The position numbers were made by a program, and so were the translations under genes. From Methanosarcina sp. (lineage in GTDB: Archaea; Halobacteriota; Methanosarcinia; Methanosarcinales; Methanosarcinaceae), in contig NZ_JAQUVZ010000025.1 in the NCBI RefSeq assembly GCF_028693135.1, positions 1 through 46,978 on the forward strand: a DNA stretch of 46,978 bases. The letters run 5' to 3'. Below are positions 2,113-45,655 of the stretch, piece after piece (within the stretch, counting starts at the first letter, position 1; the number at the start of each line of letters is the position of its first letter). Below the pieces are notes generated by a model. That model saw only the letters and a program-made list of their open reading frames with translations. It made no database searches and was not told the origin of the DNA.

Positions 2113-3567
2113 TTAATGGAGATTTCCATCCTCATTGAGGATTTTTAAAAGCTCAATTATCGAGTAAGATGCCCTGGTAATTCCCATGCTGCGTTTGTCC
2201 GTATCCGTGCCTGCGATGTAGAGATTTTTGACAGGAGTCCGGATATCCGCAAATTTTCCGTTAATTGTGACTGCGGCTTTTTCGGGGACCATAATCTGTT
2301 CATGCTGCATATCGATGTGTTTCTCGATATTTGGAATGGCACGGGAAATAGTGGCATAGGCTTTTTTGAGCTCATGCTCTTCAGTCTTATCCTTGTCTAT
2401 TACAAAGGAAAACCCTACCAATTGCCGGTCTTTTGGAGCAAGGGAAGGATCATAGTTGCTGATGGGCATTGCCCAGTATGCAAAGTCTTTAAACCAGATC
2501 TCAGAGCCTGTATAGTTGAACTCAGGAAGTTCTTCCTTCAAGCCAAGCCAGATGGTCAAGCTTTTAGTATGCACGATTCCTTTAAGTTCTTCTTTATAAG
2601 CCGGTGGTAGTTCCTTTACAAGCCCTGGGAGCTCGGTTGCAAAGCCTGTATAGATAACAAGATCGGCTGGATAGATTTCATCAGCTTCCACACCCGCGAT
2701 TTTTCCATCCTGCACCAGGATGCTTTTTACTTCGCACTCCTTTTTTATTTCTACTGTTTCCGGAAGAGAATACAGGATGGCATTCAGCAGAGCTTTCAAA
2801 CCTTTTCTTGGATATCCCTGGGAATAGTTTACCTTGTTTGTAGCAAGCCTCTCAAGGGATGTGAAAGGCCGGGCAACTCTATCCATGCGGGCCTGCAGAG
2901 AAGCATGTAGATGGTATGGAAGGATCGAAGATAGAATGGACTCGGCGGACTGGCGTTTTTTTGGCTCGATCTTTCCGATCATGGCATCAAACTGCTCCTG
3001 CGTAATGCTGTCCCTGACAAAACTGCTGCCAGAAAGAATACGCTGGGCAGAGGTCTCTCTCATTGACTTGCCAGAAAGAAAACCTGAGATTGTATCCACA
3101 AAGTCATAGGTGTCTTTGCAAAGATTTTTTGGAAGGAACTCATAAACTGACTGGTCCGAAAGATCTACTCCGAAAGTTGAAAGGGTAAGGGCTTTCGTAA
3201 GGGCCTGTGAAAGGATTAGCCTGTCCTTCCTCGGAAGCACATCAAAAGTCACGAAGTCCTTAAGGTTCGAAGGGACTTTGGTAAAAGTATTTTCAGTCCG
3301 GACATAGTAGTGCCCGTATTCCTCAAATACAGGCAGGAAATCAAAGTAATTATCAATCAGCCTCGGGAGGGGACCTTCAATCAGATGAGTTATTGCATGT
3401 GCTCCAGTATCCACCTGATACCCGTCTACCATGTAGCTGTTGCAGTTTCCCCCAAGATACCGTTCTTTCTCAAGAACAAGGACTTTCTTTCCATGCTTGG
3501 AAAGTGTCAGCGCAGCCAGAAGCCCGCTTACGCCAGCTCCGACAACAATTACATCATGTTTCTTCAT
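2113..3567 (-). CDS. CrtI-like FAD-dependent oxidoreductase (phytoene desaturase family)
   Basis: A 484-aa protein with an N-terminal dinucleotide-binding fold (VVGAGVSGLLAALTLSKHGK, then the acidic VLVLEKERYLGGNC) and a C-terminal FAD motif ending in YIAGTDTDKRSMGITRAS. The length and both motifs fit the phytoene desaturase/carotenoid isomerase superfamily (amine-oxidase-like flavoproteins). In methanogens such proteins may reduce isoprenoid chains of lipids; the substrate cannot be read here. Its ATG at 3567 overlaps the iscB stop as ATGA. The IscB element thus sits immediately before the start codon, so the native promoter and ribosome site have been replaced by the element's right end. 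Confidence 0.85.
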   Translation of the reverse strand: MKKHDVIVVGAGVSGLLAALTLSKHGKKVLVLEKERYLGGNCNSYMVDGYQVDTGAHAITHLIEGPLPRLIDNYFDFLPVFEEYGHYYVRTENTFTKVPSNLKDFVTFDVLPRKDRLILSQALTKALTLSTFGVDLSDQSVYEFLPKNLCKDTYDFVDTISGFLSGKSMRETSAQRILSGSSFVRDSITQEQFDAMIGKIEPKKRQSAESILSSILPYHLHASLQARMDRVARPFTSLERLATNKVNYSQGYPRKGLKALLNAILYSLPETVEIKKECEVKSILVQDGKIAGVEADEIYPADLVIYTGFATELPGLVKELPPAYKEELKGIVHTKSLTIWLGLKEELPEFNYTGSEIWFKDFAYWAMPISNYDPSLAPKDRQLVGFSFVIDKDKTEEHELKKAYATISRAIPNIEKHIDMQHEQIMVPEKAAVTINGKFADIRTPVKNLYIAGTDTDKRSMGITRASYSIIELLKILNEDGNLH

Positions 3568-3607
3568 AAACCCTCAGCAGGAAACCCCTGAGTCTTTAGC
3601 TCAGGGG
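3564..3607 (-). repeat. Right-end hairpin of the IscB element
   Basis: On the plus strand, CATAAACCCTCAGCAGGAAA is followed by the palindrome at 3585-3607. The same block recurs with one change in the loop at about 5300-5345, giving a direct repeat of about 44 bases. Confidence 0.8.
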
Positions 3608-4844
3608 AGGAATGCGTAAACTTTCCCATCCTGCTCTGTTGAATTAGTGTTGTTGTCCTGGCCTTCAATCGTTCACAAATTTTCTTCACGTTAACACTAT
3701 CTGATATTTTGTTTCCAAACATATCCGAAATAGCAAAGAATCCGGAAGACCTTTTGCCTTTGACAAACCCCATTCCCTTACTCGTTTTTACAAGATCGAA
3801 TTTTCTCAGGTTGAACAGTTTCCCGGTAGGTATTTTCTTTTCGGATCTTTTTCCTGTCCTTTGCTGGTAATCCCCCTTGCTAACGTTTCTTTTTAGAAAA
3901 ACAGACTTTTCTACCTCTACTTTCTGATCGTCCCTGCAACAAATAGCAACAGCATCAAAGTAATGTGTTTTTATCAACTTCAATATCTGCTCTCTCCTGT
4001 ACTTGGTTTCGTACCCGAAAGTCTCTGCAAAATTCCAGTCAGATTTCCGGATTTGGGATTTGATGATCCCGATTTCAGTTGCATTTTTTGTTTTTGACTT
4101 TTTCCCTGAAAGTTTGAATTCTCCATTGTGCAGGGCTTTGTGACAGGTTTCACAGAGCGTAATCAGGTTTTCCGGTGTATCTGTCCCCTTCTGTGACCTG
4201 AAAACGATGTGATGGCAATGCAGCCGGGAATCCTTTGACTTTCCCATGCAATGCTGGCATGTGTAGCCGTCCCGGTCCAGAACGTAAGCTTTGACATTGT
4301 AGAAGCCTTTAAGGTCCCCTTCCTGATACCCAACCCCGGAAACCTCCGGATTTGTTATTTTGTGAATATCAAAGGAAGCAAGTTCTACCTTCCACTTGAT
4401 TACAGGAAGCAGGGATTCCACAAATATCTTTTCTCGGAAATGAGCTTCAAGTTTGCTTCGAATAGAAGGAGCCAATCTTCCTTCTTTCTTTGAATTTCCC
4501 CGGTTATCAAATCTTGCGGGTCTGTATCTTGTTTTTCGACCTCTTCTGGTTCTCCGGTACATCTTCCGTTGTTCCATCTTTTTTGAAACGTTTTCTCTCA
4601 GGTAGATTTCGGACTGATACAACACTTTTCCGTTAGCAATGGCTGCACAGCCCACTACCTTAGAGCCGGTATCCATCCCTGCAGTTACAGGTTGAGTATA
4701 GCCACTGCTTCCGAAAAGTAACTTGATTGTGAATGGCGTATTTCTAACAACTTTTGCCTTGCCTGCTTGCAGTAGCTTTCTGGCTTTTGAAGGTTTACAG
4801 GGCATCAGTGGTTTTTTGTTTTGATTAATTACGAAAACTAACAT
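3564..4844 (-). CDS. iscB: IscB RNA-guided nuclease
   Basis: A 426-aa protein with the full IscB architecture: an N-terminal PLMP motif (KPLMPCKPSKARKLL, residues 10-25), RuvC-I GMDTGSK (D58), an arginine-rich bridge helix (RRTRRGRKTRYRPARF, 97-112), RuvC-II VELASFD (E154), an inserted HNH domain with zinc Cys pairs (C196/C199 and C231/C234) and LHCHHIVF (H211/H212), and RuvC-III HYFDAVAI (D297). All catalytic residues are present, so it should be active. IscB is the ancestor of Cas9 and cuts DNA with an omega RNA encoded just upstream, here at 4850-5213. The ATG at 4844 follows GGAGGAAAACTAT. The last ~18 residues are encoded by the element's right-end hairpin, and the stop overlaps the next gene. 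Confidence 0.95.
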   Translation of the reverse strand: MLVFVINQNKKPLMPCKPSKARKLLQAGKAKVVRNTPFTIKLLFGSSGYTQPVTAGMDTGSKVVGCAAIANGKVLYQSEIYLRENVSKKMEQRKMYRRTRRGRKTRYRPARFDNRGNSKKEGRLAPSIRSKLEAHFREKIFVESLLPVIKWKVELASFDIHKITNPEVSGVGYQEGDLKGFYNVKAYVLDRDGYTCQHCMGKSKDSRLHCHHIVFRSQKGTDTPENLITLCETCHKALHNGEFKLSGKKSKTKNATEIGIIKSQIRKSDWNFAETFGYETKYRREQILKLIKTHYFDAVAICCRDDQKVEVEKSVFLKRNVSKGDYQQRTGKRSEKKIPTGKLFNLRKFDLVKTSKGMGFVKGKRSSGFFAISDMFGNKISDSVNVKKICERLKARTTTLIQQSRMGKFTHSSPELKTQGFPAEGL

Positions 4845-4849
4845 ATAGT

Positions 4850-5213
4850 TTTCCTCCGAAGAGTTATGCGTATCCGAATTGTGGACTCCAACTTCGTGAA
4901 GTTGGAGTGTTACAGCGTAGATGGAAGGACTTCAACTTCGTGAAGTTGGAGTGTTACAGCGTAGCTGGAACCAGTCAATTCAGGAATCCGTCCTCCTCTC
5001 GATCTGATATGGAAAGGTTTAACGATGCAAGCACTGTCCCTACCTCTCAGGACTGTTTAACCGGCATCCTTAGAGCCTTAAACTGAGGCGACATTCAAGG
5101 GTAACTATGTATTCTTTCCTATCGTTTACCGATTTTCCGTTCTCCTGATCGGTGATCTGGTCAACTAGGGCTTGTTAGACAAGCCCCTGAGTTTTAGCTC
5201 AGGGGTAGTTGAC
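4850..5213 (-). ncRNA. Omega RNA of IscB
   Basis: This non-coding stretch immediately upstream of iscB is where IscB omega RNAs are encoded. From its 5' side (minus strand): an outer stem GTCAACTA/TAGTTGAC enclosing two hairpins (CCCCTGAG/CTCAGGGG, then GGCTTG/CAAGCC), and later the core AGTCCTGAGAGGTAGGG preceded by CCTCAGTTT. The same elements recur in the stand-alone copy at 45317-45655, with different bases that keep the stems. By the known IscB design the guide is the sequence just 5' of the scaffold, i.e. about 5214-5235 read on the minus strand. The 3' part holds two tandem hairpins (4885-4972). Confidence 0.8.
4885..4972. repeat. Two tandem 44-bp hairpin repeats
   Basis: Two near-identical copies begin at 4885 and 4929. 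Each contains the palindrome CAACTTCGTGAAGTTG followed by GAGTGTTACAGCGTAG. They lie in the 3' part of the omega RNA, close to the iscB ribosome site. The stand-alone omega RNA near 45.5 kb does not show them. Confidence 0.85.
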
Positions 5214-10814: not shown

Positions 10815-13800
10815 TTAATTATTTCCACTTGCAGATTCACTTAGTTTATTGTATTTTTCGATCGCTTCATCAGCCTCATCATATCTATTTAGCCTCATAA
10901 GTGATTGGCCTTTGAACAGGTACACTCCAGCGTCATTTTTTCCAAGGTCAATAGAAGTATTAAAGGATTCCAGCGCCTTAGAATAATTCCCTAGCATAAA
11001 AAGCATTAAACCCTTTGCGAAATGTAACACACCATCATTTTTATTCAATTTGATTTTTTCTTCTATATCTGGTAACGATTTTTTTGCATGCTGAACTGCA
11101 TTATTGCAATTATCAAATTCTTTTTTGACATGTTCATTGTCTGGATTTAACTCGAAGACTTTTTTAAAGCATTGAAGTGCCATTGAGTGATCATACATTC
11201 CCATGAATGCACATCCAAGATTTAGCCATGCATATTCATGGTCAGGCTTGATACGAATAGCGTCCTGGAGGTCTTTAATTGCCCCATCATATCTCCCTTG
11301 TTCAAAATAGAGAACTCCTTTCTCATGGAAAGCATCGTAATCATTTTCATCGATAGATAGAGCAGAATCAATGCACTGTTCAGCTTTGTCAAATTCCTTT
11401 TTTCTGATAAGTATCTGAGCTTTTCCAACTAAAGCATCATTATTTTTTGGATCGATCTTTAATGCCTCACTTAATAAATCAAAAGCCTCATCATCTTTCC
11501 CCTTAGTGACATATTCCATTGCCTCCTCAAATAGTGCAATATCTCCATGTTTCTCTTTAAATGTCTTGTTAAATTCCTCCATATTTTCGGAACCGTAGAT
11601 GAGTTCAATCACTGCATTCAGATGACTAACGGCTTCATGTCTAAGTTCAATCACCTCTTTTTTGCCCTTGACTTCTTTATGGAATACCTTATTTCGATAA
11701 GGAGCTAAAAAGGCACATGCCGCCTTTATAACTTTATATTTTTTCCCTACTTTTTCCTTAATGTGCTTATTCACAGAGTCTATGACGGGGTGTCCATTAA
11801 TCCCATAAATATCAAATCTTTCCCATGTGCCGAGAGGAACTGACTTTTGCCTTTTAGAGTTCTTGGTTAGTTGGCCAGTTTTCAAATAATATGGGAGATC
11901 CGAATAGTACGCTTTTGGGATTCCGTAGTATTCATCTGTAGAAAATTCATCAAATACATTGGACCTAACATCAGTCCAGACCTCTTCATTGAGCAATATT
12001 TCCAATCCTTTTGCGTAATAGCCAAGAGGTGGAGAAAAGTCGAACTCTTCCTCTTCGTTAATACTCCTGTAGAGGTCAAGAGCTTCCCTTTCTGCAGTCT
12101 TTAGTGAGAGTCTTGCAGGACGACACTTCACACTTTCGAGGCTGAGATGTTCGTCAAGAAAGATTCCTAGGTCAATTTTTAATTTTTTTACCTCGGTGTT
12201 TTCCGGAGCAATTTTGAAGGCTATTTCTAAACATTTCCTTGCTTCTATAAGGTTCATTTTTTCAATATAAGCATCAGCCATTCTGTGCATAAGCATAGCA
12301 CGTTCAAGTGTAGGTAGAGAATAGTAATATGATTTCTCTGCCTTCTGATAACATGAGATTGCGGCATCAAAGTCACATGCATCAGAATATAAGTCCCCTT
12401 TTCTGGAGGTAAATAGAGCTCGATTGTTTTCATCGAAATTTTTTTCATTTATTAATCTGTCAACAGCCTCAATTGCTTTTTCAAACCAACGTATTGAAAC
12501 ATATGCCGACACTGCATAATATGTAGATTCTTCAATCGGAAGATACTTCTCTATTTCAGGGGTTAAATCATCGAGTATTTTTACAATTTCTTCTTTTTTA
12601 ATCCAAAATAGTTCGGAAACAACATTATTGAGTAATGTGCCGATTGTTCTTCCCAGTTCTTCATCCTTAAAAATTAAAGGAAATGAAGAAATTTCATCTC
12701 TTAGTGATTTTATTCCTTCGTCGTCATTTCCCTCCAAAATCAAACATATCCCAAGATAGCCGGCAGTAGATCGAACAAATTTATCTTTTTGCTGGTACTT
12801 TCTCTGATATGATTCAAAATACATCCTTGCCTTATCAAAGTCTTGAGTTTCAAAATGAGCCCTTGCAAGGAATATAGGTAGGTCTTCAGATGTACCTTCA
12901 TTACAGTTTAAAAAAACAAACTTTTTGATTATCTCTAAGGCCCGCGTGAACTGGAATGAATTGAGTAAAGGTTCAAATTTTGATAATATGAAAGGTATTT
13001 TTTCTAATTGAGCTTCCTTTTTCAATATCTCAATATTATATTCTCCTGCTGTATTGACACATTTTTCTAAGAAAGTCAGTCTTTTATGTATATGATCCCA
13101 AAGTAGAGAATTGATGTCCCTCCTACCTAAAATTTCATTGAGAATCTCGTACTCTTCATTTGGATTAAATGTATTATGATATCCTATGGAGATTTCGAGG
13201 AGAAGTTTAGTTTTTTCATTATTGTTTAGCAATTTAAGGTCCTTTAAAACCTCCTTCATGCGTTTATTTGCTTCAATTTCATGCCCGAGATGGTAATCCA
13301 TTTCTGCAATGTACTTTTTTACAAGGAGGGTAAGATATTGCGTTGAAAACTTAGTTTTCCTTACATGTAAGGAGGGTTGGAAGATAGAGTTGTTATTGTC
13401 AATATATTGAGAAATAATTTCATACGCAGCTTCATACCACCCTTTTGCCTCCTGATAGTTTTCCATATTTTTGCAACAGTATGCCATGTCATCAAGAAAG
13501 AAAAATCGATCGATATCCGATTTTACACGATTAAAGCAGTGATTAAAAAGTATGAATGCATCACTAAAATAACCCCCATCACACAGTACATTTGCAGATG
13601 CATCAATTTCTTCGATGGAAAGGGAAGAAAGATTATTTTCATCAATCTCAAATGTGTATTCTTTGTTTAGAATTGCAAGCTTTTCCTGCTCCTCTTTTGC
13701 CCCAAACCAAAATTCAGCTACAATAAAGAGAGCAGCGTTAGTGAACCTAATGTACTGTATAGATTCATGTTTTTTATTAGAATCTAGTAGTAAAAACTCA

Positions 13801-14561
13801 GATTTCTCCATCCAGGGAAAAGCGGGTGCATCAACCTCAAAATTAGTAGCGATAATATCTCGAGTGTCTTTTTGAAAGGAAACACATCTTAGTAAGGACA
13901 TTTCATATTCTTTTCTCTCAGGATTTACATAGTAATCCGAGTATCTCAGATGGCGATAAATATAGTATTGGGATTCTTGATCACGTTTTCTATTAAACGA
14001 TTTTCGGATGTGGTCAGTAGCCTCTATAAATGGCATTTTCCCAAAAGCATGATATGCCTCTATGAAATGGATTATTGTCCGAATTGCAGTTACTGCAACA
14101 TCGTCCTGAATGCTGACCGCCTGCTTGTAGAGGTACTGGTAAAATTTTATGCTATTGGAATTGTCTATGGCTGTAATAAAAGTAGTAAAATCTTTCTTGT
14201 AGTATTCCACCTGGTTAGCGATAATCTCTTCTAATTCCTGATTCTCAATTATGTCAATTTCTTCAACGCCTGTGTAGAAAGTGGCGTTACTGCATGTAAA
14301 GTCACAAAATAATTTTGTTATGTATTTTTGGATTTTCTTAATTAACTCTTTATCTTGAGAGATGGATTCAAGGACGAACTGCTGGAATCCCGGGTCTCTT
14401 TGCATCCTGAACAGAAACAATTCATTTAAGTTATTTTCAAGGTTAAGAGCCTTTTTTTCTTCATCACTTTTTTCCCGGATAATATCAGCGAATGTAATAC
14501 TTTTTTGTAATAGATGGGTTTCATAGAGAAAGAATTTCATTGCATCTTCAGTGATATGCAT
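10815..14561 (-). CDS. Large TPR protein with an internal HEPN-type domain
   Basis: A 1248-aa, AT-rich gene. The N-terminal ~270 residues are helical and unrecognised. About residues 330-810 are degenerate TPR-like helices. About 830-985 resemble the HEPN family found in defence and stress proteins: it starts PPLGYYAKGLEILLNEEVW, passes VPLGTWERF, and reaches APYRNKVFHKE, where RNKVFH (near residue 956) matches the HEPN RNase motif R-N-x-x-x-H. About 1000-1240 are clear TPRs (ALKIDPKNNDALVGKAQI). The ATG at 14561 lies 37 bases after the viperin stop, so the two are likely cotranscribed. HEPN proteins are often RNases in abortive defence; activity here is inferred. Confidence 0.75.
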   Translation of the reverse strand: MHITEDAMKFFLYETHLLQKSITFADIIREKSDEEKKALNLENNLNELFLFRMQRDPGFQQFVLESISQDKELIKKIQKYITKLFCDFTCSNATFYTGVEEIDIIENQELEEIIANQVEYYKKDFTTFITAIDNSNSIKFYQYLYKQAVSIQDDVAVTAIRTIIHFIEAYHAFGKMPFIEATDHIRKSFNRKRDQESQYYIYRHLRYSDYYVNPERKEYEMSLLRCVSFQKDTRDIIATNFEVDAPAFPWMEKSEFLLLDSNKKHESIQYIRFTNAALFIVAEFWFGAKEEQEKLAILNKEYTFEIDENNLSSLSIEEIDASANVLCDGGYFSDAFILFNHCFNRVKSDIDRFFFLDDMAYCCKNMENYQEAKGWYEAAYEIISQYIDNNNSIFQPSLHVRKTKFSTQYLTLLVKKYIAEMDYHLGHEIEANKRMKEVLKDLKLLNNNEKTKLLLEISIGYHNTFNPNEEYEILNEILGRRDINSLLWDHIHKRLTFLEKCVNTAGEYNIEILKKEAQLEKIPFILSKFEPLLNSFQFTRALEIIKKFVFLNCNEGTSEDLPIFLARAHFETQDFDKARMYFESYQRKYQQKDKFVRSTAGYLGICLILEGNDDEGIKSLRDEISSFPLIFKDEELGRTIGTLLNNVVSELFWIKKEEIVKILDDLTPEIEKYLPIEESTYYAVSAYVSIRWFEKAIEAVDRLINEKNFDENNRALFTSRKGDLYSDACDFDAAISCYQKAEKSYYYSLPTLERAMLMHRMADAYIEKMNLIEARKCLEIAFKIAPENTEVKKLKIDLGIFLDEHLSLESVKCRPARLSLKTAEREALDLYRSINEEEEFDFSPPLGYYAKGLEILLNEEVWTDVRSNVFDEFSTDEYYGIPKAYYSDLPYYLKTGQLTKNSKRQKSVPLGTWERFDIYGINGHPVIDSVNKHIKEKVGKKYKVIKAACAFLAPYRNKVFHKEVKGKKEVIELRHEAVSHLNAVIELIYGSENMEEFNKTFKEKHGDIALFEEAMEYVTKGKDDEAFDLLSEALKIDPKNNDALVGKAQILIRKKEFDKAEQCIDSALSIDENDYDAFHEKGVLYFEQGRYDGAIKDLQDAIRIKPDHEYAWLNLGCAFMGMYDHSMALQCFKKVFELNPDNEHVKKEFDNCNNAVQHAKKSLPDIEEKIKLNKNDGVLHFAKGLMLFMLGNYSKALESFNTSIDLGKNDAGVYLFKGQSLMRLNRYDEADEAIEKYNKLSESASGNN

Positions 14562-14598
14562 AGTAGATTTCCCCTATAATGAAGTCAATCAAATGCGA

Positions 14599-15435
14599 TC
14601 AATTTGCCCAATTATACAGTCCACCACGCCGCTCGTATTTATCAACATTTACAATATTCTGAATTCCTTTATTAAGTACTTCGTCAAGACAGTATTTAGA
14701 AATAACTCTTCCTTCATTAATTATAACATTTCCAGCCGGCGTCACTATGAAATACGAATTCTCCATGTCGTCGGCGGATTCAAAAACCGGGGCATCTCCA
14801 TTTTCAAGCCTGAAAAGTCTATGCCTATCTACAAAATATTCGAACTGTTCATTTGATATTGATAAATCAGCTAGAGCGTCATCATTCTCACCCCGAAGAT
14901 GGAGCATCTGGAAGACTTTCCACCTTTCCGGATTTAAATTGCGGATGATTGGGCGCATGTTCTCAAGGTATGTCAGGCGGGTTACTGTGGTGTTTACTTT
15001 TAAATGAATGCCTGCTTCATGAATTTTATCGGCAATTTCGATGCAATGGGTCACGTGATCACCGTATCCTCTGCATAACTTTTCTTCAATAACGTCACTT
15101 CCAGAATCAACCGACAGACCAATCCAATCAACAAGTCCATCCATTTTATCGATAATTTTCCCACTCAAGAGATAACCGTTAGTTGTTATGGAAACCGTCA
15201 TACCAAGGCTTTTAGCGTATGAGCAATAGTCCAGTAGTCTGGGATGCAGTAGAGGTTCACCTCCTGCAAAATTGATTTTTTCCATTCCCGCATCCTTGAG
15301 TTTCGATATAACTTTTTTTCCTTCCTGGAACGGAAGATGACATTCCCCCAGGTTTTTTGCAAAACAGAAACGACAGGAGTAATTGCAAACCGATATTAGG
15401 TGCCAGTTTACGGATTTGATTTTTGTATTCTTCAT
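14599..15435 (-). CDS. Prokaryotic viperin (pVip), radical SAM ddh-nucleotide synthase
   Basis: 278 aa. The radical SAM cluster motif is CNYSCRFCFAKN (C17, C21, C24), followed by NFAGGEP (58-61 GGEP) for SAM binding. The viperin hallmark LNPERWKVFQMLHLRGEN (168-184) and the C-terminal RGGLYNW (near 270-276) match human viperin's NPxRWKVFQ and RGGKYxW. Viperins convert CTP, GTP or UTP to 3'-deoxy-3',4'-didehydro nucleotides that stop viral RNA synthesis. The ATG at 15435 is preferred over in-frame TTG codons just upstream. A TATA-like AGTTTATAGA about 20 bases upstream suggests a nearly leaderless mRNA. No nucleotide kinase neighbour, common in other pVip loci, is seen. Confidence 0.93.
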   Translation of the reverse strand: MKNTKIKSVNWHLISVCNYSCRFCFAKNLGECHLPFQEGKKVISKLKDAGMEKINFAGGEPLLHPRLLDYCSYAKSLGMTVSITTNGYLLSGKIIDKMDGLVDWIGLSVDSGSDVIEEKLCRGYGDHVTHCIEIADKIHEAGIHLKVNTTVTRLTYLENMRPIIRNLNPERWKVFQMLHLRGENDDALADLSISNEQFEYFVDRHRLFRLENGDAPVFESADDMENSYFIVTPAGNVIINEGRVISKYCLDEVLNKGIQNIVNVDKYERRGGLYNWAN

Positions 15436-15554
15436 CAACAAAAAATTAGTTTCTATAAACTTAATTATTTTTTAGATTTTCCTGTTATTTAATAGATGTA
15501 TTTATGAATTAATAGAGCATTATTTGACAACGAGACTCTTAAAGGAAATCAGCT
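15436..15554. promoter_or_regulatory. Divergent promoter region, viperin / CARF gene
   Basis: 119 AT-rich bases between divergent genes. Minus-strand TATA-like AGTTTATAGA lies at about 15450-15460; a plus-strand candidate TATTTATGAATTAATAG lies near 15498-15515. AAAGGAA precedes the CARF ATG. The CARF-wHTH protein may bind here. Confidence 0.45.
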
Positions 15555-16307
15555 ATGACTGAAGGACACAAAATACACATAATGAGTGCAGGAGAAAATA
15601 TACACAATACATTTCCCATAGCTGTCAATAATATTTCACCTGCTACAGAAGTTTATGTGATCGTTGAAAAAAGGGTTTATGAAGATTCAGATTACCCTAA
15701 AATCCAGGAAACCCGAAGAAAGATCAGAGAATCAATAAAACAATTGAAAACAATAGCTTCCCCCTTTGTAAAAAATGGGGTACACGAGATAGTCATCGAG
15801 GAAGATACCCTTGATTATATAAGGGATGTTGTTTTCAATATTTACAAAAAGAAGAGCGATGCTCAGTACTATTTCAATGTATCCGGGGGTACAAAAGCAC
15901 TTTCAATCGGACTTTTCATGATGGCCTTGTGGATAGAGGCAATCCCATATCACGTAGACATGGAAAGTAAAGCAAAAACAATTGCAATTCCCAAGGTGCA
16001 TATACACGACTTCCAGACTAACCCTAACAGAGTTAGGATACTTGAGATTCTCAGCAAGCAAAAATCGGGTACTATGCCAAGAAAAGAGTTATTCCGAGAG
16101 CTTTCAAAGCAATATATTCCTATAAGAGATACAGGAAAAGCTAAAAGGGAACTGAAAGACGGTGTTTTTAACTCCATGACCAAAGATCTTCTTAGATGGA
16201 AGCTTATTGGAGAGGAGTTCAGGGAGAAAAGCAAAAAGGAAAAGATATATTTCATCACCTCGGATGGTGAATTTACATTGAAGTTTGTTAACCTTTCTGA
16301 GAAATAA
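15555..16307 (+). CDS. CARF-domain winged-helix regulator (Csa3/DUF6293-like)
   Basis: 250 aa. Residues 1-150 form a Rossmann-like CARF domain: strand KIHIMSAG, and the ligand-loop motif YYFNVSGGTKALSIGLFMM (SGGTK at 110-114), diagnostic of CARF proteins. Residues 155-245 look like a winged helix-turn-helix (NRVRILEILSKQKSGTMPRK, later LLRWKLIGEEF and IYFITSDGEFTL). CARF domains bind cyclic oligoadenylates or related nucleotides. No CRISPR locus is in the window, so the signal is unknown. It is divergent from viperin, a normal position for a local regulator. The ATG at 15555 has AAAGGAA upstream. Confidence 0.85.
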   Translation: MTEGHKIHIMSAGENIHNTFPIAVNNISPATEVYVIVEKRVYEDSDYPKIQETRRKIRESIKQLKTIASPFVKNGVHEIVIEEDTLDYIRDVVFNIYKKKSDAQYYFNVSGGTKALSIGLFMMALWIEAIPYHVDMESKAKTIAIPKVHIHDFQTNPNRVRILEILSKQKSGTMPRKELFRELSKQYIPIRDTGKAKRELKDGVFNSMTKDLLRWKLIGEEFREKSKKEKIYFITSDGEFTLKFVNLSEK

Positions 16308-16616: not shown

Positions 16617-17069
16617 TTACCTGTACTGCCTCTTTTGAGCCTGCAAAATATCTTGCTTTATCGACTCAGGCACATCTACTACCATGGTCTCAATACCAAA
16701 CCTCTTTAAACATGCTCCATGCCAGCCATTGCCAGTAAATTTACGTGCAGCTTCCTTATCAACAAAAGCCAGTATTTTCTTAAATGACCCCCCTAAATGT
16801 TGTTCAAGAAAAAGCATTTTGAGAGCGTTGTTCATTATTTTATGAGTCTGTGCTGCTTTCGTCTCACCGATCCGTGCTGAGGCTTCACAAATGATATTGG
16901 GATCTCTTGAAAAACCTGTGACGACTACATAAGAGTCACCCACTGAAATTTTCTTCTCAGGGAAATTGTCTGGATCTAATCCGAGTTTGCGTGCGATTTC
17001 TTCCCTTATGTATTCATGAGCATGAGTCTGTTCCGAGGAATCTCCATCTTTTTTGTTGTTGCTTTGCAT
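16617..17069 (-). CDS. Unknown 150-aa protein, last gene of the BREX operon
   Basis: It follows brxL by 14 bases and has a ribosome site GAGGTCTGTGT, so it belongs to the operon. I do not recognise the family. The central part VVVTGFSRDPNIICEASARI, then GETKAAQTHKIMNNALKMLF, has a strand-E-x-x-x-x-x-G-x-x-K-x-x-Q-x-H-K pattern loosely like PD-(D/E)XK folds, with D at DPN as a possible first acid. The C-terminus GWHGACLKRFGIETMVVDVP looks like a final strand-helix pair. A nuclease or DNA-binding accessory role is possible but only a guess. Confidence 0.75.
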   Translation of the reverse strand: MQSNNKKDGDSSEQTHAHEYIREEIARKLGLDPDNFPEKKISVGDSYVVVTGFSRDPNIICEASARIGETKAAQTHKIMNNALKMLFLEQHLGGSFKKILAFVDKEAARKFTGNGWHGACLKRFGIETMVVDVPESIKQDILQAQKRQYR

Positions 17070-30482: not shown

Positions 30483-31484
30483 ATGAGTCTTTGGCTGGTA
30501 AGAGCAGGCGGACATGGTGAACAGGAACAGGTAGCCATAGAAGAAAACGTGATCACCATCGGCTGGAATGAGTTTTCAGGTTTTTCAAACTTAAAAAGAA
30601 AAGAGGACCTGACCGAAATCTACAGAAAAGAGTATCCAGGTGCCAGTAAGAATAAGGCTGGTAATGAAATAGGGCAGATCTGGAGATTTATCCACGACAT
30701 TAAGAAAGGCGATCTGGTTGCTCTTCCGCTTAAAACAGAATCGTCTATAGCTCTGGGTGAGGTTGTTGGGGATTACGAATACAAAGAACTGTCTAATAAT
30801 GTCAAACACATCAGACGTGTTAAATGGTTGAAAACGCTTCCAAGATCTGCTTTTGACCAGGACCTGCTCTACTCTTTTGGAGCCTTCATGACCGTGTGCA
30901 AGATCCAAAGAAATGGTGCCAAAGAACGTGTCTTGAAATTGTTACATGGAAACACAAAGCAAATTGAGAGAGAAGAAGCAGGTGAAGAGCTCCAGGAAGA
31001 GACCATCGATATAGAAGAATATTCCCAGGATCAAATTGTAAAATATATCGAAGCTAAGTTCAAAGGTCATGGTCTTGCAAGGCTGATTGATGCGATACTT
31101 AAAGCCCAGGGTTACGTTACAAGAGTCTCCCCTCCAGGTAAAGATGGAGGTATTGACATCCTTGCTGCTCCAGGTCCTTTGGGTTTCGACAGACCAAGAA
31201 TCTGCATCCAGGTAAAATCGTCAAATGTGCCTGCAAGTGTTCAGGTATTGAGAGAACTTCAAGGTGTGATGTCAAAAGTAAGAGCTGACCAGGGATTGTT
31301 TGTTTCTTGGGGAGGCTTTAATTCTGAAGCAAAACAGGAAGCAAAGGATGCATTCTTCACGATAAGATTATGGGATCAGGGGAACATACTTCAAGAGATT
31401 TTTAAGTATTACGAACGGTTTGATGATGAGTTGAAGGCAGAGTTGCCATTAAAAAGAATATGGAGTCTGGTTATTGAGGAATAA
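30483..31484 (+). CDS. Mrr-like restriction endonuclease
   Basis: 333 aa. The N-terminal ~160 residues (SLWLVRAGGHGEQEQVAIEE, later IWRFIHDIKKGDLVALPL) look like the recognition-type domain found before Mrr nucleases in the 'restriction system protein' group. Residues 185-320 are the Mrr catalytic domain with GKDGGIDILAAPG (D225) and ICIQVKSS (Q243-x-K245), the PD-(D/E)XK variant of Mrr. Such enzymes typically cut modified or foreign DNA. It points away from BREX and towards the HARE-peptidase gene. The ATG at 30483 has AGAGG upstream. Type IV activity is inferred. Confidence 0.85.
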   Translation: MSLWLVRAGGHGEQEQVAIEENVITIGWNEFSGFSNLKRKEDLTEIYRKEYPGASKNKAGNEIGQIWRFIHDIKKGDLVALPLKTESSIALGEVVGDYEYKELSNNVKHIRRVKWLKTLPRSAFDQDLLYSFGAFMTVCKIQRNGAKERVLKLLHGNTKQIEREEAGEELQEETIDIEEYSQDQIVKYIEAKFKGHGLARLIDAILKAQGYVTRVSPPGKDGGIDILAAPGPLGFDRPRICIQVKSSNVPASVQVLRELQGVMSKVRADQGLFVSWGGFNSEAKQEAKDAFFTIRLWDQGNILQEIFKYYERFDDELKAELPLKRIWSLVIEE

Positions 31485-31742
31485 TTTTGGGCTGTTTCTT
31501 GAGAAAGGGAGATCAATAAGTTATGAAGTATTCTTTAAAAAGAAGATCAATCGCCGTATAACAAAATATTGTTACGCCGGCAATTCTTAAACAATAAAGC
31601 CCAAATTTGACAAATTCAACCAGTTTATAAAGAGACTGTCTTCTATTTTAACCCAATGTTTTCATTTTTTAGTCGGAAAGCCGATTTGACAGTTAACATA
31701 ACCAAGAACACTGATATTAATTTTGACTGTCAAACTTGGGTT
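31485..31742. other. Convergent spacer with weak inverted repeat
   Basis: No gene is seen. TTTGACAGT (31685-31693) and ACTGTCAAA (31726-31734) could form a long-loop hairpin between the two convergent genes. Whether it ends transcription is unclear. Confidence 0.35.
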
Positions 31743-33422
31743 TCAGTAATATTTTTCAAATTGCCTTAGCGTTTGTTCAAAGATCTCGTCCCCTTTCGGA
31801 GTCTGCTCTTTACAATCTAATATTATATCTCTTTCATTCATATATTTTGGATTAGATTCCCTAAACACTTCTTGGTCACTATTAATTAGCCTCGATATAA
31901 ATTCACAGAATGTTTCATATGATCTTGTTTGATCTTCATTAAGTTGTAAGATATTAACCATTTTATCTTTGACAAAATCATAATATGGCTTATAGGAGCC
32001 TTCATACTGGAATCGCATGTATTCTTCAAAGAATTCATCAATTTCGTGGTCATTAACCTTTGTAGAAATAAAATCGTGCAGAAACTTCTTGTAACATATT
32101 TCAGAATAAAGTTCAGGAAAACCTTCATTTATCTTTTCACTGGCTCTGTATCTATCATAAACTATAAAATGATAAAGTTCGTGGTAAAGAGCTTGATAGA
32201 ACTTTGGGCTAAATACTAAATCCGATGAATCTTCAAGATCATACGGCATCATTATAAAATCTGATTCAAAAGAATAAGTTTCATTGTGTATATGGCATCC
32301 GTAGCCGCCCATTTCTTGATTGTTTATAACGTCATATTCTTTATCAAGTAAAAAAACTGGATATGTATCAATCGCTACTTTACACTTAATAGGTCTGTAA
32401 AAAGCATATCTTCCGCTAATTTGATCTCTTGTGCATTTCCTTCTGAGTTTATTAAACAACATCTGAATTTCGTTTATATTATTATACATTTCTTCAGAAG
32501 AGATTTGATTTATAAGCTCCAACTTTAACTTATTTATTTCTGAAAGTAAAGCATCAGAATTTGTATTTTTAAATTTTTTCCGGTGCTCGATAACCTCCTC
32601 TTTGGTACCGAAAATTACTTTCAAATCTCTTCTATAATCAAAACGATGTAAGTAATCCAAAGCAAAAGGTTCATGATGCCAATCATTTAAAAGGTTATTA
32701 ACTATTGAAATTCCGCGACAAAAAGTGTGACAATCTCCTTCCTCTAATATTTTGTCACGTAAATTTCCAGTGATGGATATTTTAACTCTAGATTCTTTCC
32801 AATACCCCATCTGGTTATCAATTACGTTCCTTTCAATAACTGAACTTATTTTTGAGAAGGAAGAATTAGCCTCTAATTCATTTGAGGATATAAAATCCCC
32901 ATTAAAGATTGATTTTGGAAAAATTCTAGAAGCAACAGTTGTAAAACCGTTCTCATCAATTGGAGCATCTGCATATGTACCTGGTAGACAGTTAAAGTTG
33001 TTTGCGTTTGGATCTATTTTGAATATGTCTATGCCCTCTTTACTTAAATAACGAATAAAATCATCTTTACTTATGTTACTAAATTCCGGTTTTTTAGATC
33101 CCCAGATTTGAAAGGATTGGTATAATTTGTCTATTTGAGTATTTACATCAAAAGCAAAAGTACAAGCCTCATGAAGAAAATTTTTAACTAGATTATCTTG
33201 TACTATGTGATTTTTGAGTTTGTATTTACCTTCTCCAACTAACTCAAAATCGGAATCGCGACTAAGTGTCGTTTTTATTGAAGTAATTTTTTCTATATTC
33301 TTTTTATAAAGACCTCTTTGGTTTATTATTTCCCTAATATCCTCATAATGAAGTGGCACTCCGCCAGCTTCCACTAATACGCATTTAATGACATCTTTAA
33401 TTGTTTTTATCTCAGTTGACAT
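31743..33422 (-). CDS. HARE-HTH / zinc metallopeptidase (gluzincin) fusion
   Basis: 559 aa, AT-rich. Residues 5-70 match the HARE-HTH winged helix: KDVIKCVLVEAGGVPLHYED, GLYKKN, then TTLSRDSDFELVGEGKYKL. Residues 410-445 hold YHELYHFIVYDR (H414-E415-x-x-H418) and NEGFPELYSE (E433), the HExxH ... E-G zinc site of gluzincin peptidases. The middle 340 residues are unrecognised. HARE-HTH domains are usually fused to enzymes of DNA modification and restriction and may read modified DNA; a peptidase partner is unusual. The ATG at 33422 (AGAGGG upstream) is preferred to a TTG one codon earlier. It follows the helicase-nuclease by 87 bases on the same strand. Confidence 0.75.
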   Translation of the reverse strand: MSTEIKTIKDVIKCVLVEAGGVPLHYEDIREIINQRGLYKKNIEKITSIKTTLSRDSDFELVGEGKYKLKNHIVQDNLVKNFLHEACTFAFDVNTQIDKLYQSFQIWGSKKPEFSNISKDDFIRYLSKEGIDIFKIDPNANNFNCLPGTYADAPIDENGFTTVASRIFPKSIFNGDFISSNELEANSSFSKISSVIERNVIDNQMGYWKESRVKISITGNLRDKILEEGDCHTFCRGISIVNNLLNDWHHEPFALDYLHRFDYRRDLKVIFGTKEEVIEHRKKFKNTNSDALLSEINKLKLELINQISSEEMYNNINEIQMLFNKLRRKCTRDQISGRYAFYRPIKCKVAIDTYPVFLLDKEYDVINNQEMGGYGCHIHNETYSFESDFIMMPYDLEDSSDLVFSPKFYQALYHELYHFIVYDRYRASEKINEGFPELYSEICYKKFLHDFISTKVNDHEIDEFFEEYMRFQYEGSYKPYYDFVKDKMVNILQLNEDQTRSYETFCEFISRLINSDQEVFRESNPKYMNERDIILDCKEQTPKGDEIFEQTLRQFEKYY

Positions 33423-33509
33423 CAATATACCCTCTAACGATTCAATGAATTTGAAGACATTAAAACAAAAATTATTTAGGAAGTAATCTCCAACTTCTCA
33501 TATTTAGAA

Positions 33510-36500
33510 TTATTTATTGCACCACCCACATATCCCCTTATAATCGCAGAAATAACAATTAGGCTCTTCCTTGATCTCAAAGTCCTCCTTCATTATATCC
33601 GCAACCGCCTTCTTGATCCTCACAACCACGGCTTCCACATCTTTCTCAGAAATATCCACGAGGCGGAGTTCTTTAACTTCGGGGTTTACGTAGAGGTGAC
33701 CTGCCTGGGTTGGGAGTTTGCCGTGTTTTTCTTTTACGGCGAGGCAGTAGAGGGCGATCTGGACATCTTCTTTGAGCTTTTTTTTGCTGGTGGGGGTTTT
33801 TCCGGTCTTGTAGTCGATAACGATGTATTCGTCGTCAGGGGTTTTGTCGAGGCGGTCGATGAATCCTCCGAATTGGGCGCCGTCGAGGGTGAGGTCGAAA
33901 CGTTCTTCGACTTCTATGGTTTCGTTTTTGCAGGTTTTTTCAAGGTTGAGCCAGAACTCCAGCATCTGTTTCATTTTGCCGAGTTCCTGCTGTTCCTGGG
34001 TGTCCGAGGCGAAGGTTGTGCCGTCCCAGGAGTCGTCAAGCATTTTGTGGGCGAGGTTGAGGTCTATGGGGTTGCCCTGCATCTTGAGTTTGGAGAGCTG
34101 TTCGTATACCGAGTGGACACCGGTTCCTACCTGGAAGTAGGTCTTCTGGGGAGTCGGGATGTTGAGAACGGAATTGTATTTGAACTTCAAAGGACAGTCC
34201 AGGTATTCCTTGATTTTGGAGGCGGAAAAGGACATATCAGGGTCAACGAGGGGAGGGACGCGGTTGACGATCAGGTTTTCTATTTCCTGGGGTTCCCTGG
34301 GGTTTACTCTTAGCAGGTCAGCCAGGTCGAAGGTGGCAAGATTTCCATTGAGTTCGACCTCCTTAAGCTGTGCGAGCACTACAAGGGATTCCAGAGCTTC
34401 TTTGATCTGACCCTGCCTGGTGTACATGTTGACCAGCCGCTGGTACTCATCCCTCTTGACCTTCAGGGGAGATTCCATTGCAAGCTCTTCTTTTGCGCCG
34501 GAGGCTTCGGTCTCTATATACTCAACAAGGGGGTTGGACAGGTAGTTGATCTGGTTCAGGAATTCGCTGGGCTTCGAACTTGTCTTGTTTCCGGCGTATA
34601 TCTCCGGGAAGACAAGGTACAGATGTTCCTTTGCGCGGGTCATTGCGACATAGGTGAGCCTCCTTTCCTCTTCAAGGTGCAGCACTTTCTCCTCTTCGTC
34701 ACTCTGAACGCCTTTTGCAAGCCCTGAAGGTACCGTAAAAGGCTTTTTCATGTAATTCAGGGGGAGGTGCCTTGCAGCCACATCGCAGACAAAAACGGCT
34801 TTTGCTTCTTTGCCCTTGGACTGGTGTATGGTCATGACCTTGACCGTATTCTCTTCACTGGACTCTCCGTCCTCTATGTCAAGCCCGAAAACAAGCCCTA
34901 CGTGTTCCATAGCGGTCTCAAACTCAGAGCCCCCATCGACGAGTTCAAGGTCTTCCACCATCTCTACAAGCGAGTTAAGGATTTTGATGTTCTTTCTGGA
35001 CTTTGCCGTGTCCTCATGCAGCTGGGAACGGTAGAGGTCCGTTTTTTCCAGCAGTAAATACTTCACGGTATCGGACGGAAGATGTTTCTTCTTAAAGGCC
35101 AGCATCTCCTCTATTCTCGCCAGTATTGATTGGACAAGGCTTTTCTGCGTGATGTCGATCTCATCAAGATGATCGGTAAGAACAGAGTATATCCCGTCGC
35201 CTTCCAGCTCATGCTTCCTGCTGAGCTTGCGGGCAAGGATATTTATCTTCTGGAGGTTATGTTCGGTCAAACCTTCCCTTGAAAAGAGCTTCGCAAAGGC
35301 AATCCCGTTGTTGAATGGGTCCGCAACTACACTTATGTAAGCCAGAGCTTCCTGGATTATAGGAAAACTCGGCAGTTTCAGGCTGCCAACATACTCAACA
35401 GGGATCATTTTGCTCTTCAGAGCATCGTTGAATTTCTTCCCGTCCGCCCTTTTTCGGGTAAGTATGTAAATGTCGTTTGGCTCAAGCCCCTCTTCATTCA
35501 CAAGCCTGTTTACCTCATCCGCCACCCATTCGGCTTCACTGATATCATCAGGGGTCTTTACAACCTTTACCCTGTCCCCGTCCCCGTTATGGGAGACAAG
35601 GTTCTTTTCCTGTCTCTCCGGATTGTGCTTTATGAGCTGCTGGGATATTTCAACGATCTGTGAAGTGGACCTGTAATTAACTTCAAGAGGGACCTTTTCC
35701 AGGGACTCATAGTATTCCTGAAGTTGCCTGATATTGGAAATATATGCCCCCCTGAACCTGTATATGCACTGGTCGTCATCCGCAACACAGGTCAGGTTAT
35801 TTCCATCAGCAATCAGGTTTATAAGGTAAAGCTGGGCATAATTCGTATCCTGGAATTCATCGACCAGAACGTAATCGTAACGCTTGCTTACCTGTTTTCT
35901 TATCACTTCATTCTCTGCCAGGAGATCGCAGGCGATATTTATCATGTCATCATAATCGATGAAGTTATTATCTGCCTTGTACTGCTGGTAATGTTCGAAG
36001 AATTTGGCAAGGTCGCTGAGAATTAACAATTCACTTTTTTGCTCCTCATCAATATCAGGTTCCGATGCCAATTTATTATCAATATAATCCTGCAGGTCAG
36101 AAGGAGATACAAGGTGGTCCCGCATCTGGGATACGCCTTCAAGCAAACTGGTTATAAGATCATAATGGTTTGAAGGAATTGCGATGTTTTCAAAGCCAAA
36201 AGAGTCTATATTGATGATTCCCCAGACGTGGGAATGCTCTTTAGAAATCAGCCTTACATTATGGTTTATTCCAGCATAAAGGAAAAATTCCCTGATGAGT
36301 TCATTGCAGTATGAGTGGAATGTAGAAACAGTAATATTGCTTTCTGCCCCAATTTCTTTTTCGATTCTTTCCTGCATCTCTCCTGCGGCTTTTTCCGAGA
36401 AAGTTAATGCCAGGATCCTGGCAGGGGATATCCCATTTTTAGTAAGATTGACAACTTTTTCAGTAATAGTCAGTGTTTTGCCAGACCCCGGTCCTGCAAG

Positions 36501-36569
36501 TATTAGCAGCGGACCATCGGTATAACCAACGGCTTTGGATTGACCTTCATTAAGTCCCCTGGATTCCAT
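33510..36569 (-). CDS. UvrD-type helicase with C-terminal Fe-S RecB-like nuclease
   Basis: 1019 aa. Superfamily 1 helicase motifs: Walker A LAGPGSGKTLTITEKV (residues 24-39), DEFQDTNYAQ (about 237) and RRLTYVAMTRAKEHLYLVF (about 635-653). The C-terminal domain is a PD-(D/E)XK nuclease: FGGFIDRLDKTPDDEYIVID and the adjoining YKTGKT (about 905-925). It ends in CYFCDYKGICGWC, and with an earlier YLDCPLKF gives the Cys set for a 4Fe-4S cluster as in AddB and Cas4-like nucleases. It probably processes DNA ends. The ATG at 36569 follows GGAGTATTTATT. The gene lies between a small unknown protein and the HARE-peptidase on one strand. Confidence 0.9.
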   Translation of the reverse strand: MESRGLNEGQSKAVGYTDGPLLILAGPGSGKTLTITEKVVNLTKNGISPARILALTFSEKAAGEMQERIEKEIGAESNITVSTFHSYCNELIREFFLYAGINHNVRLISKEHSHVWGIINIDSFGFENIAIPSNHYDLITSLLEGVSQMRDHLVSPSDLQDYIDNKLASEPDIDEEQKSELLILSDLAKFFEHYQQYKADNNFIDYDDMINIACDLLAENEVIRKQVSKRYDYVLVDEFQDTNYAQLYLINLIADGNNLTCVADDDQCIYRFRGAYISNIRQLQEYYESLEKVPLEVNYRSTSQIVEISQQLIKHNPERQEKNLVSHNGDGDRVKVVKTPDDISEAEWVADEVNRLVNEEGLEPNDIYILTRKRADGKKFNDALKSKMIPVEYVGSLKLPSFPIIQEALAYISVVADPFNNGIAFAKLFSREGLTEHNLQKINILARKLSRKHELEGDGIYSVLTDHLDEIDITQKSLVQSILARIEEMLAFKKKHLPSDTVKYLLLEKTDLYRSQLHEDTAKSRKNIKILNSLVEMVEDLELVDGGSEFETAMEHVGLVFGLDIEDGESSEENTVKVMTIHQSKGKEAKAVFVCDVAARHLPLNYMKKPFTVPSGLAKGVQSDEEEKVLHLEEERRLTYVAMTRAKEHLYLVFPEIYAGNKTSSKPSEFLNQINYLSNPLVEYIETEASGAKEELAMESPLKVKRDEYQRLVNMYTRQGQIKEALESLVVLAQLKEVELNGNLATFDLADLLRVNPREPQEIENLIVNRVPPLVDPDMSFSASKIKEYLDCPLKFKYNSVLNIPTPQKTYFQVGTGVHSVYEQLSKLKMQGNPIDLNLAHKMLDDSWDGTTFASDTQEQQELGKMKQMLEFWLNLEKTCKNETIEVEERFDLTLDGAQFGGFIDRLDKTPDDEYIVIDYKTGKTPTSKKKLKEDVQIALYCLAVKEKHGKLPTQAGHLYVNPEVKELRLVDISEKDVEAVVVRIKKAVADIMKEDFEIKEEPNCYFCDYKGICGWCNK

Positions 36570-45316: not shown

Positions 45317-45655
45317 GTCAACTACCTCACGCTCAAGAAGTGGGGCTTGCAAAAGCCCTGGTTGACCAGCCTGAGTCTTAAATGACTACGTTGGAAATGT
45401 CATGATACATACTAATGCTTCCTCAGTTTGTAGCTCTATCGTGTAGCATTAAAAGTCCTGAGAGGTAGGGGCGGTGTGTTACACCTGACAAGCATATCCA
45501 ACATTGGCGAAGGGAGACGGTTTTCCAAAACCGTGTTACCTGCTACGGAAATTCGATTCCAAAGCAGAGTGGAGAAATCCAAACGTGGAACGGAATGCCA
45601 GAAAGTTGACGGCATTCCTCCCTGCGCTAAAGCAACAGGGCTTCCTGCCTGTCAC
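45317..45655 (+). ncRNA. Stand-alone omega-RNA element without iscB
   Basis: It starts GTCAACTACC (45317) and has the same two nested hairpins closed by GTCAACTA...GTTGACCAG, the core CCTCAGTTTGTAGCTCTA and AGTCCTGAGAGGTAGGG (about 45449-45467), and a right end CGGCATTCCTCCCTGCGCTA, then CAGGGCTTCCTGCC. These match, in order, the omega RNA and right end of the IscB element at 3568-5213, but about 1.3 kb of iscB is missing. It is probably a non-autonomous (deleted) IscB element whose RNA could still serve an IscB made elsewhere. The guide would be about 45297-45316. Confidence 0.75.

Follow-up and report, generated by a model that had tools for sequence, protein, structure and literature searches.

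A viperin, TPR-HEPN and CARF-winged-helix gene set as a predicted antiviral unit in a Methanosarcina defence island

Organization of the locus

The window analysed here, a stretch of 46,978 nucleotides from Methanosarcina sp. (contig NZ_JAQUVZ010000025.1), contains a defence island in which three genes adjoin a BREX system comprising BrxL, PglZ, PglX, BrxB and BrxA, all recognised by PADLOC, plus BrxC. Genes for a viperin and a TPR-HEPN protein lie on the minus strand with a gap of 37 bp between them, and a CARF-winged-helix (CARF-wHTH) gene is divergent on the plus strand, across 113 bp of intergenic DNA (15442-15554). The three open reading frames (1248, 280 and 250 aa) were checked in the sequence, and their positions, sizes, spacing and orientation agreed with an initial annotation made from the DNA letters. 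The features of the locus are as follows.

10815..14561, minus strand: TPR-HEPN protein, 1248 aa (ORF; PADLOC PDLC02907; TPR matches in Pfam; homologue alignment)
11571..12155, minus strand: HEPN domain, residues 803-997 (alignment; HEPN Pfam matches in family members; all-helical model)
11679..11696, minus strand: RNKVFH, the HEPN RN-x3-H catalytic-type motif, residues 956-961 (conservation in the alignment)
14599..15441, minus strand: prokaryotic viperin, 280 aa as listed (pVip; PDB viperins; motifs)
15364..15387, minus strand: CNYSCRFC, the radical-SAM [4Fe-4S] motif of the viperin (sequence; alignment)
15483..15514, no strand assigned: putative operator-like element in the divergent promoter (alignment to loci L082 and L075)
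15555..16307, plus strand: predicted CARF-wHTH regulator, 250 aa, of Csa3-like architecture (PDLC02909 'Csa3'; fold match)

Several other features were observed in the window. A 150-aa ORF without Pfam or PADLOC match (16617-17069, minus strand) shares its strand with BrxL and lies just downstream of it. Beyond BREX, positions 30483-36569 include a candidate defence gene (PDC-S02), a HARE-HTH protein of 560 aa and a UvrD helicase-PDDEXK nuclease. An RRXRR-HNH (IscB-like) ORF (3564-4844, minus strand) is preceded just upstream on the same strand by a HEARO/omega RNA (4990-5213, minus strand; Rfam RF02033, 123 bits), and for a second HEARO RNA (45317-45522, plus strand; 140 bits) no adjacent RRXRR or HNH ORF was recognised in the window.

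The viperin and its TPR-HEPN neighbour

The viperin matched the PADLOC pVip model with an E-value of 8.5e-75, and its best sequence matches in the PDB were solved viperins (E 3e-40 to 6e-34). The motifs CxxxCxxC, GGEP and RWKVFQ proved intact when 42 viperins and viperin-like proteins of the loci were aligned, so that both the radical-SAM motif and the viperin-specific core and C-terminus of pVips are present, which bears out the initial call of a clear prokaryotic viperin. The listed start codon is TTG, and an in-frame ATG two codons on is equally likely.

The neighbouring protein matched the viperin-associated 'TPR' family of PADLOC (PDLC02907) over residues 1-985 (E 1.3e-48) and had multiple TPR matches in Pfam. 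Its HEPN domain is internal, flanked by the TPR superhelix on one side and by a C-terminal extension of further TPRs on the other, and the protein has 1248 aa in the window and 1249 aa in Methanoculleus (locus L175), compared with about 1000 in most relatives. The motif RNKVFH, noted in the initial annotation as being of the HEPN RNase type, is by itself weak evidence, because 0.19 occurrences of RN-x3-H are expected by chance in a protein of such length; its conservation is strong evidence. We aligned 24 HEPN domains (alignment A2), 21 of them viperin-linked, with 20 viperin-linked homologues aligned. R154, H159 and N180 were invariant in all 24 and N155 was near-invariant, while RN-x3-H was kept in 21/21 viperin-linked proteins, although the viperin-linked domains are only about 20-30% identical to that of the window (L175 stands apart at 59%). 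Loss of the motif among homologues, which the initial annotation had named as grounds for giving up the idea of a unit, was therefore not seen among the viperin-linked proteins compared.

Members of the HEPN family matched the Pfam models HEPN_MAE_28990 (6.7e-6), HEPN_RiboL-PSP (2.3e-4) and HEPN_Apea (1e-3); the window's own domain had no significant Pfam match. The model of the domain was all-helical (pLDDT 88.6), and a Foldseek comparison with solved structures returned no significant match, with HEPN proteins among the names listed, so the HEPN assignment is based on sequence and motif rather than on the structure search. RNA cleavage is a predicted activity of such a protein, and abortive infection a possible outcome. 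No viral relatives of the TPR-HEPN protein were confirmed in the viral_contigs search, and plasmid matches extended over no more than roughly a quarter of its length, mostly in the C-terminal TPRs. The same HEPN subfamily was also seen without viperin at three loci (L166, L167 and L168); the L168 protein additionally matches YaaA/DUF6884 models, and in that of L167 RN-x3-H is replaced by RGKATH.

Linkage of the three genes across genomes

The neighbourhood comparison suggested in the initial annotation was made at two levels. Among 112 genomes of the family, viperin was present in 15, with a CARF match adjoining it in 12. Among 393 genomes of the phylum, viperin was found in 29, the CARF gene in 28 and the TPR gene in 20; viperin and CARF occurred together in 20 (2.1 expected, p 1.3e-20), viperin and TPR in 16 (1.5 expected, p 2.5e-17), and all three genes in 16. 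These p-values take genomes as independent and are hence overstated; the module exchange described below is independent of them. We inspected 28 loci in which the viperin and CARF genes are neighbours, the window included. The pair was divergent in 26 (the CARF gene of G234 being taken from the phylum co-occurrence search), and TPR-HEPN was also present in 22, counting L074, where it is present as fragments; in L075 it is encoded convergently, outside the operon. The arrangement recurs in Methanosarcinaceae and in other families of the phylum. Together with the conserved HEPN motif, this co-occurrence strongly supports the earlier suggestion that the three genes form one unit.

In many loci of Methanosarcinaceae, a P-loop kinase (VakA in PADLOC) is inserted between the first viperin and TPR-HEPN, and in several a second, more divergent viperin stands there. 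VakA is absent from this position in the window and in the loci inspected outside the family. Elsewhere in the window's genome, the VakA search gave weak generic kinase matches only (best E 2.6e-12), and the model also matches 10/14 control genomes.

The second tandem viperins (L078:9832-10590, L080:9774-10526, L081:6335-7084, L084:9268-10092 and L072:8908-9729) keep CxxxCxxC, have RWKVFQ and other core motifs altered and are without the C-terminal RGGxYxW; their substrate or role may have changed.

Furthermore, viperin was found with neither CARF nor TPR-HEPN in seven loci (L076, L079, L085, L086, L151, L157 and L163); viperin itself therefore does not need these partners. At four of these loci (L076:9645-11318, L151:9603-11270, L157:6568-8343 and L163:9422-11089), viperin adjoins an unnamed family of 555-591 aa whose members are homologous across the four (24-30% identity between lineages, E 1e-32 to 1e-77). 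The three members scanned had no Pfam or PADLOC match, and the family is a possible candidate for an unnamed viperin partner.

A Csa3-like regulator and its possible ligand

Csa3 is a CARF-wHTH regulator associated with type I-A CRISPR. The CARF-wHTH protein of the window matched PADLOC 'Csa3' PDLC02909 (E 1.5e-103), with a further match to HFX_2341_N below that model's cut-off. Its AlphaFold model (pLDDT 91.6) had the Csa3 structures 2wte, 6wxq and 6w11 as best full-length PDB matches (TM 0.57-0.62), and both the CARF plus winged-helix architecture and the fold of Csa3 are present, in line with the initial identification. Csa3 motif 1 is T-h-G-F-(N/D)-E-x4-R and motif 2 is L-x2-G-h-R (PMC8699464). 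The window counterparts, SAGENIHNTFP and VSGGTK, keep the Gly, the Asn and one basic residue and otherwise differ; the protein is thus Csa3-like rather than Csa3 proper. No viral relatives were confirmed in viral_contigs, and none were found in phages.

The fold raises the question of whether the locus is coupled to type III CRISPR, the CARF domain binding Cas10-made cyclic oligoadenylate and so adding viperin and a HEPN RNase to the CRISPR alarm. Csa3 CARF-wHTH proteins do bind cA4 (PMC8699464), the CARF model matches cA4-bound Csa3 structures, Gly112 and the near-invariant Lys114 are reminiscent of the Gly-x-Arg with which Csa3 contacts phosphate, and a Cas10 match is present in the genome of the window itself. 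On the other hand, motif 1 is unmatched, and a Cas10 palm domain was found in only 5/24 genomes with viperin and CARF (G000, G110, G219, G329 and G417) by a search that does match 5/14 control genomes; the 19 genomes in which it was not detected include G014, which is only 57% complete. Because of these 19 genomes, Cas10-made cyclic oligoadenylate is disfavoured as the general ligand, and we regard the CRISPR coupling as unlikely. The idea in the initial annotation that a nucleotide signal is sensed by CARF may still hold, with a general Cas10 source for that signal disfavoured.

A product of viperin might instead be the signal, a 3'-deoxy-3',4'-didehydro (ddh) nucleotide or a derivative acting as CARF ligand or TPR-HEPN trigger, with viperin both a chain-terminator factory and an alarm. 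The CARF pocket is retained in genomes in which Cas10 was not found, the unit is compact, and the space between viperin and TPR-HEPN often holds VakA and a second, divergent viperin, all of which would suit this reading; against it, we know of no CARF domain that binds a mononucleotide analogue. We give it a small chance, and hold it similarly doubtful that a ddh-nucleotide, possibly matured by the viperin-associated kinase, serves as a second messenger sensed by the CARF-wHTH protein or TPR-HEPN. If that were true, chain termination and RNA cleavage would be one self-amplifying, CRISPR-independent circuit.

Module exchange and the divergent promoter

The window viperin and TPR-HEPN protein are 73% and 50% identical, respectively, to those of Methanoculleus sp. 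UBA303 (L175), with tree support of 98 and 100. The CARF protein has 39% identity to that of L175 and 66-70% to five Methanolobus-type CARFs (tree support 94). The intergenic DNA follows the CARF gene, with similarity z-scores of 11-16 against the Methanolobus-type loci versus 0.2 against L175. Judged from these sequence comparisons, the locus is a mosaic in which viperin and TPR-HEPN are Methanoculleus-like and CARF and the promoter DNA are Methanolobus-like. In L082, TPR-HEPN pairs with that of L077 in the trees, and viperin and CARF pair elsewhere. The trio has thus been re-assembled after exchange, a pattern for which co-inheritance of the neighbourhood cannot account.

This bears on two further readings. 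One is that the trio is an accident of defence-island assembly, for which the setting, an island that also carries BREX, would be suitable. Given the co-occurrence (p~1e-17 to 1e-20) and the re-assembly after module exchange, we reject this explanation. The other is that viperin and TPR-HEPN are independent effectors under one shared promoter, with the TPRs sensing a viral trigger of their own. TPR-HEPN does swap independently of viperin, and the HEPN domain occurs without viperin in the three proteins above, one matching YaaA/DUF6884. Yet every full-length TPR-HEPN in the neighbourhoods examined adjoins viperin and CARF, and the viperins without CARF in the examined loci are also without TPR-HEPN; we find separate effectors with one switch improbable.

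Over all pairs of loci, intergenic similarity had a partial correlation of 0.37 with CARF identity (Mantel p 5e-4) and of 0.21 with viperin identity, and promoter DNA thus tracks CARF type. Since the same pattern could arise if a recombination event had its breakpoint where viperin starts, the tracking supports, and does not prove, binding of CARF there. Palindromes (p<0.015) were found in 7/24 intergenic regions, of which some are close relatives of one another. The window's own region had no significant palindrome (p 0.83), and its operator-like element is a degenerate homologue of a perfect palindrome with 15-bp arms in the Methanolobus-type locus L082. Binding to a palindrome in a promoter has been described for Csa3a (PMC8699464). 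From the divergent promoter and the winged helix, the CARF protein looks like the transcriptional switch of the operon.

Relation to known systems

The initial annotation knew of no description of the trio, and this has to be revised, as the gene set is already catalogued: PADLOC has models for all three genes, and viperin with a TPR protein is the only archaea-exclusive type of viperin system in the set of a 2026 paper that cites Bernheim 2021 (PMC12988326). The PADLOC models that can be named between PDLC02903 and PDLC02911 are pVip (twice), pVip-kinase, TPR, Ankyrin, Csa3 and VakA (PDLC02911), and we infer from the numbering and the linkage that the later ones among them derive from viperin neighbourhoods. 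The window locus belongs to this catalogued system, and two of its parts can now be read more clearly. It agrees with the archaeal viperin-TPR system in that all three proteins match its models, the host is archaeal and pVip adjoins a PDLC02907-type TPR protein; it differs in having no VakA between viperin and TPR-HEPN and in the C-terminal TPR extension. In a non-exhaustive search, we found no literature that presents viperin, HEPN and CARF as one unit, names the TPR protein a HEPN RNase, or states or tests the action of the CARF gene. To our knowledge, no experiment has addressed a viperin/TPR-HEPN/CARF unit.

Comparison with other systems is instructive as well. Some bacterial viperin operons include HicA or RelE RNases (PMC10865869), and the window likewise has viperin beside a predicted RNase, although this one belongs to the unrelated HEPN-TPR family, is archaeal and is accompanied by a divergent CARF-wHTH gene. 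With Csa3, the regulator shares CARF and winged helix, overall fold, promoter-side position and possibly a palindromic site, but it is divergent to a viperin operon and pocket motif 1 is unmatched; no cas genes were recognised among the window proteins scanned. Like the CARF-HEPN RNases Csm6 and Csx1, the locus uses CARF and HEPN in one defence, but here the two are on separate proteins and the CARF protein carries a DNA-binding domain.

A proposed inducible antiviral unit

The reading that we favour, and think somewhat probable, is that the CARF-wHTH protein controls the operon of viperin and the predicted HEPN RNase, making the locus an inducible antiviral unit. The CARF-wHTH protein would be a ligand-controlled transcription factor seated on the divergent promoter, where it would turn on the viperin/TPR-HEPN operon. 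Viperin would then convert an NTP to a ddh nucleotide that terminates viral transcripts, and TPR-HEPN would act as a second effector, an RNase restrained or targeted by its TPR superhelix that would cut RNA once infection is sensed, with a possible abortive outcome. This proposal raises the question of which ligand the CARF domain binds in genomes without Cas10. The unit is a compact case in which to ask how prokaryotic viperins are switched on and whether they act alone, combining a regulator of its own, a delimited promoter and a partner protein in which an RNase motif is conserved.
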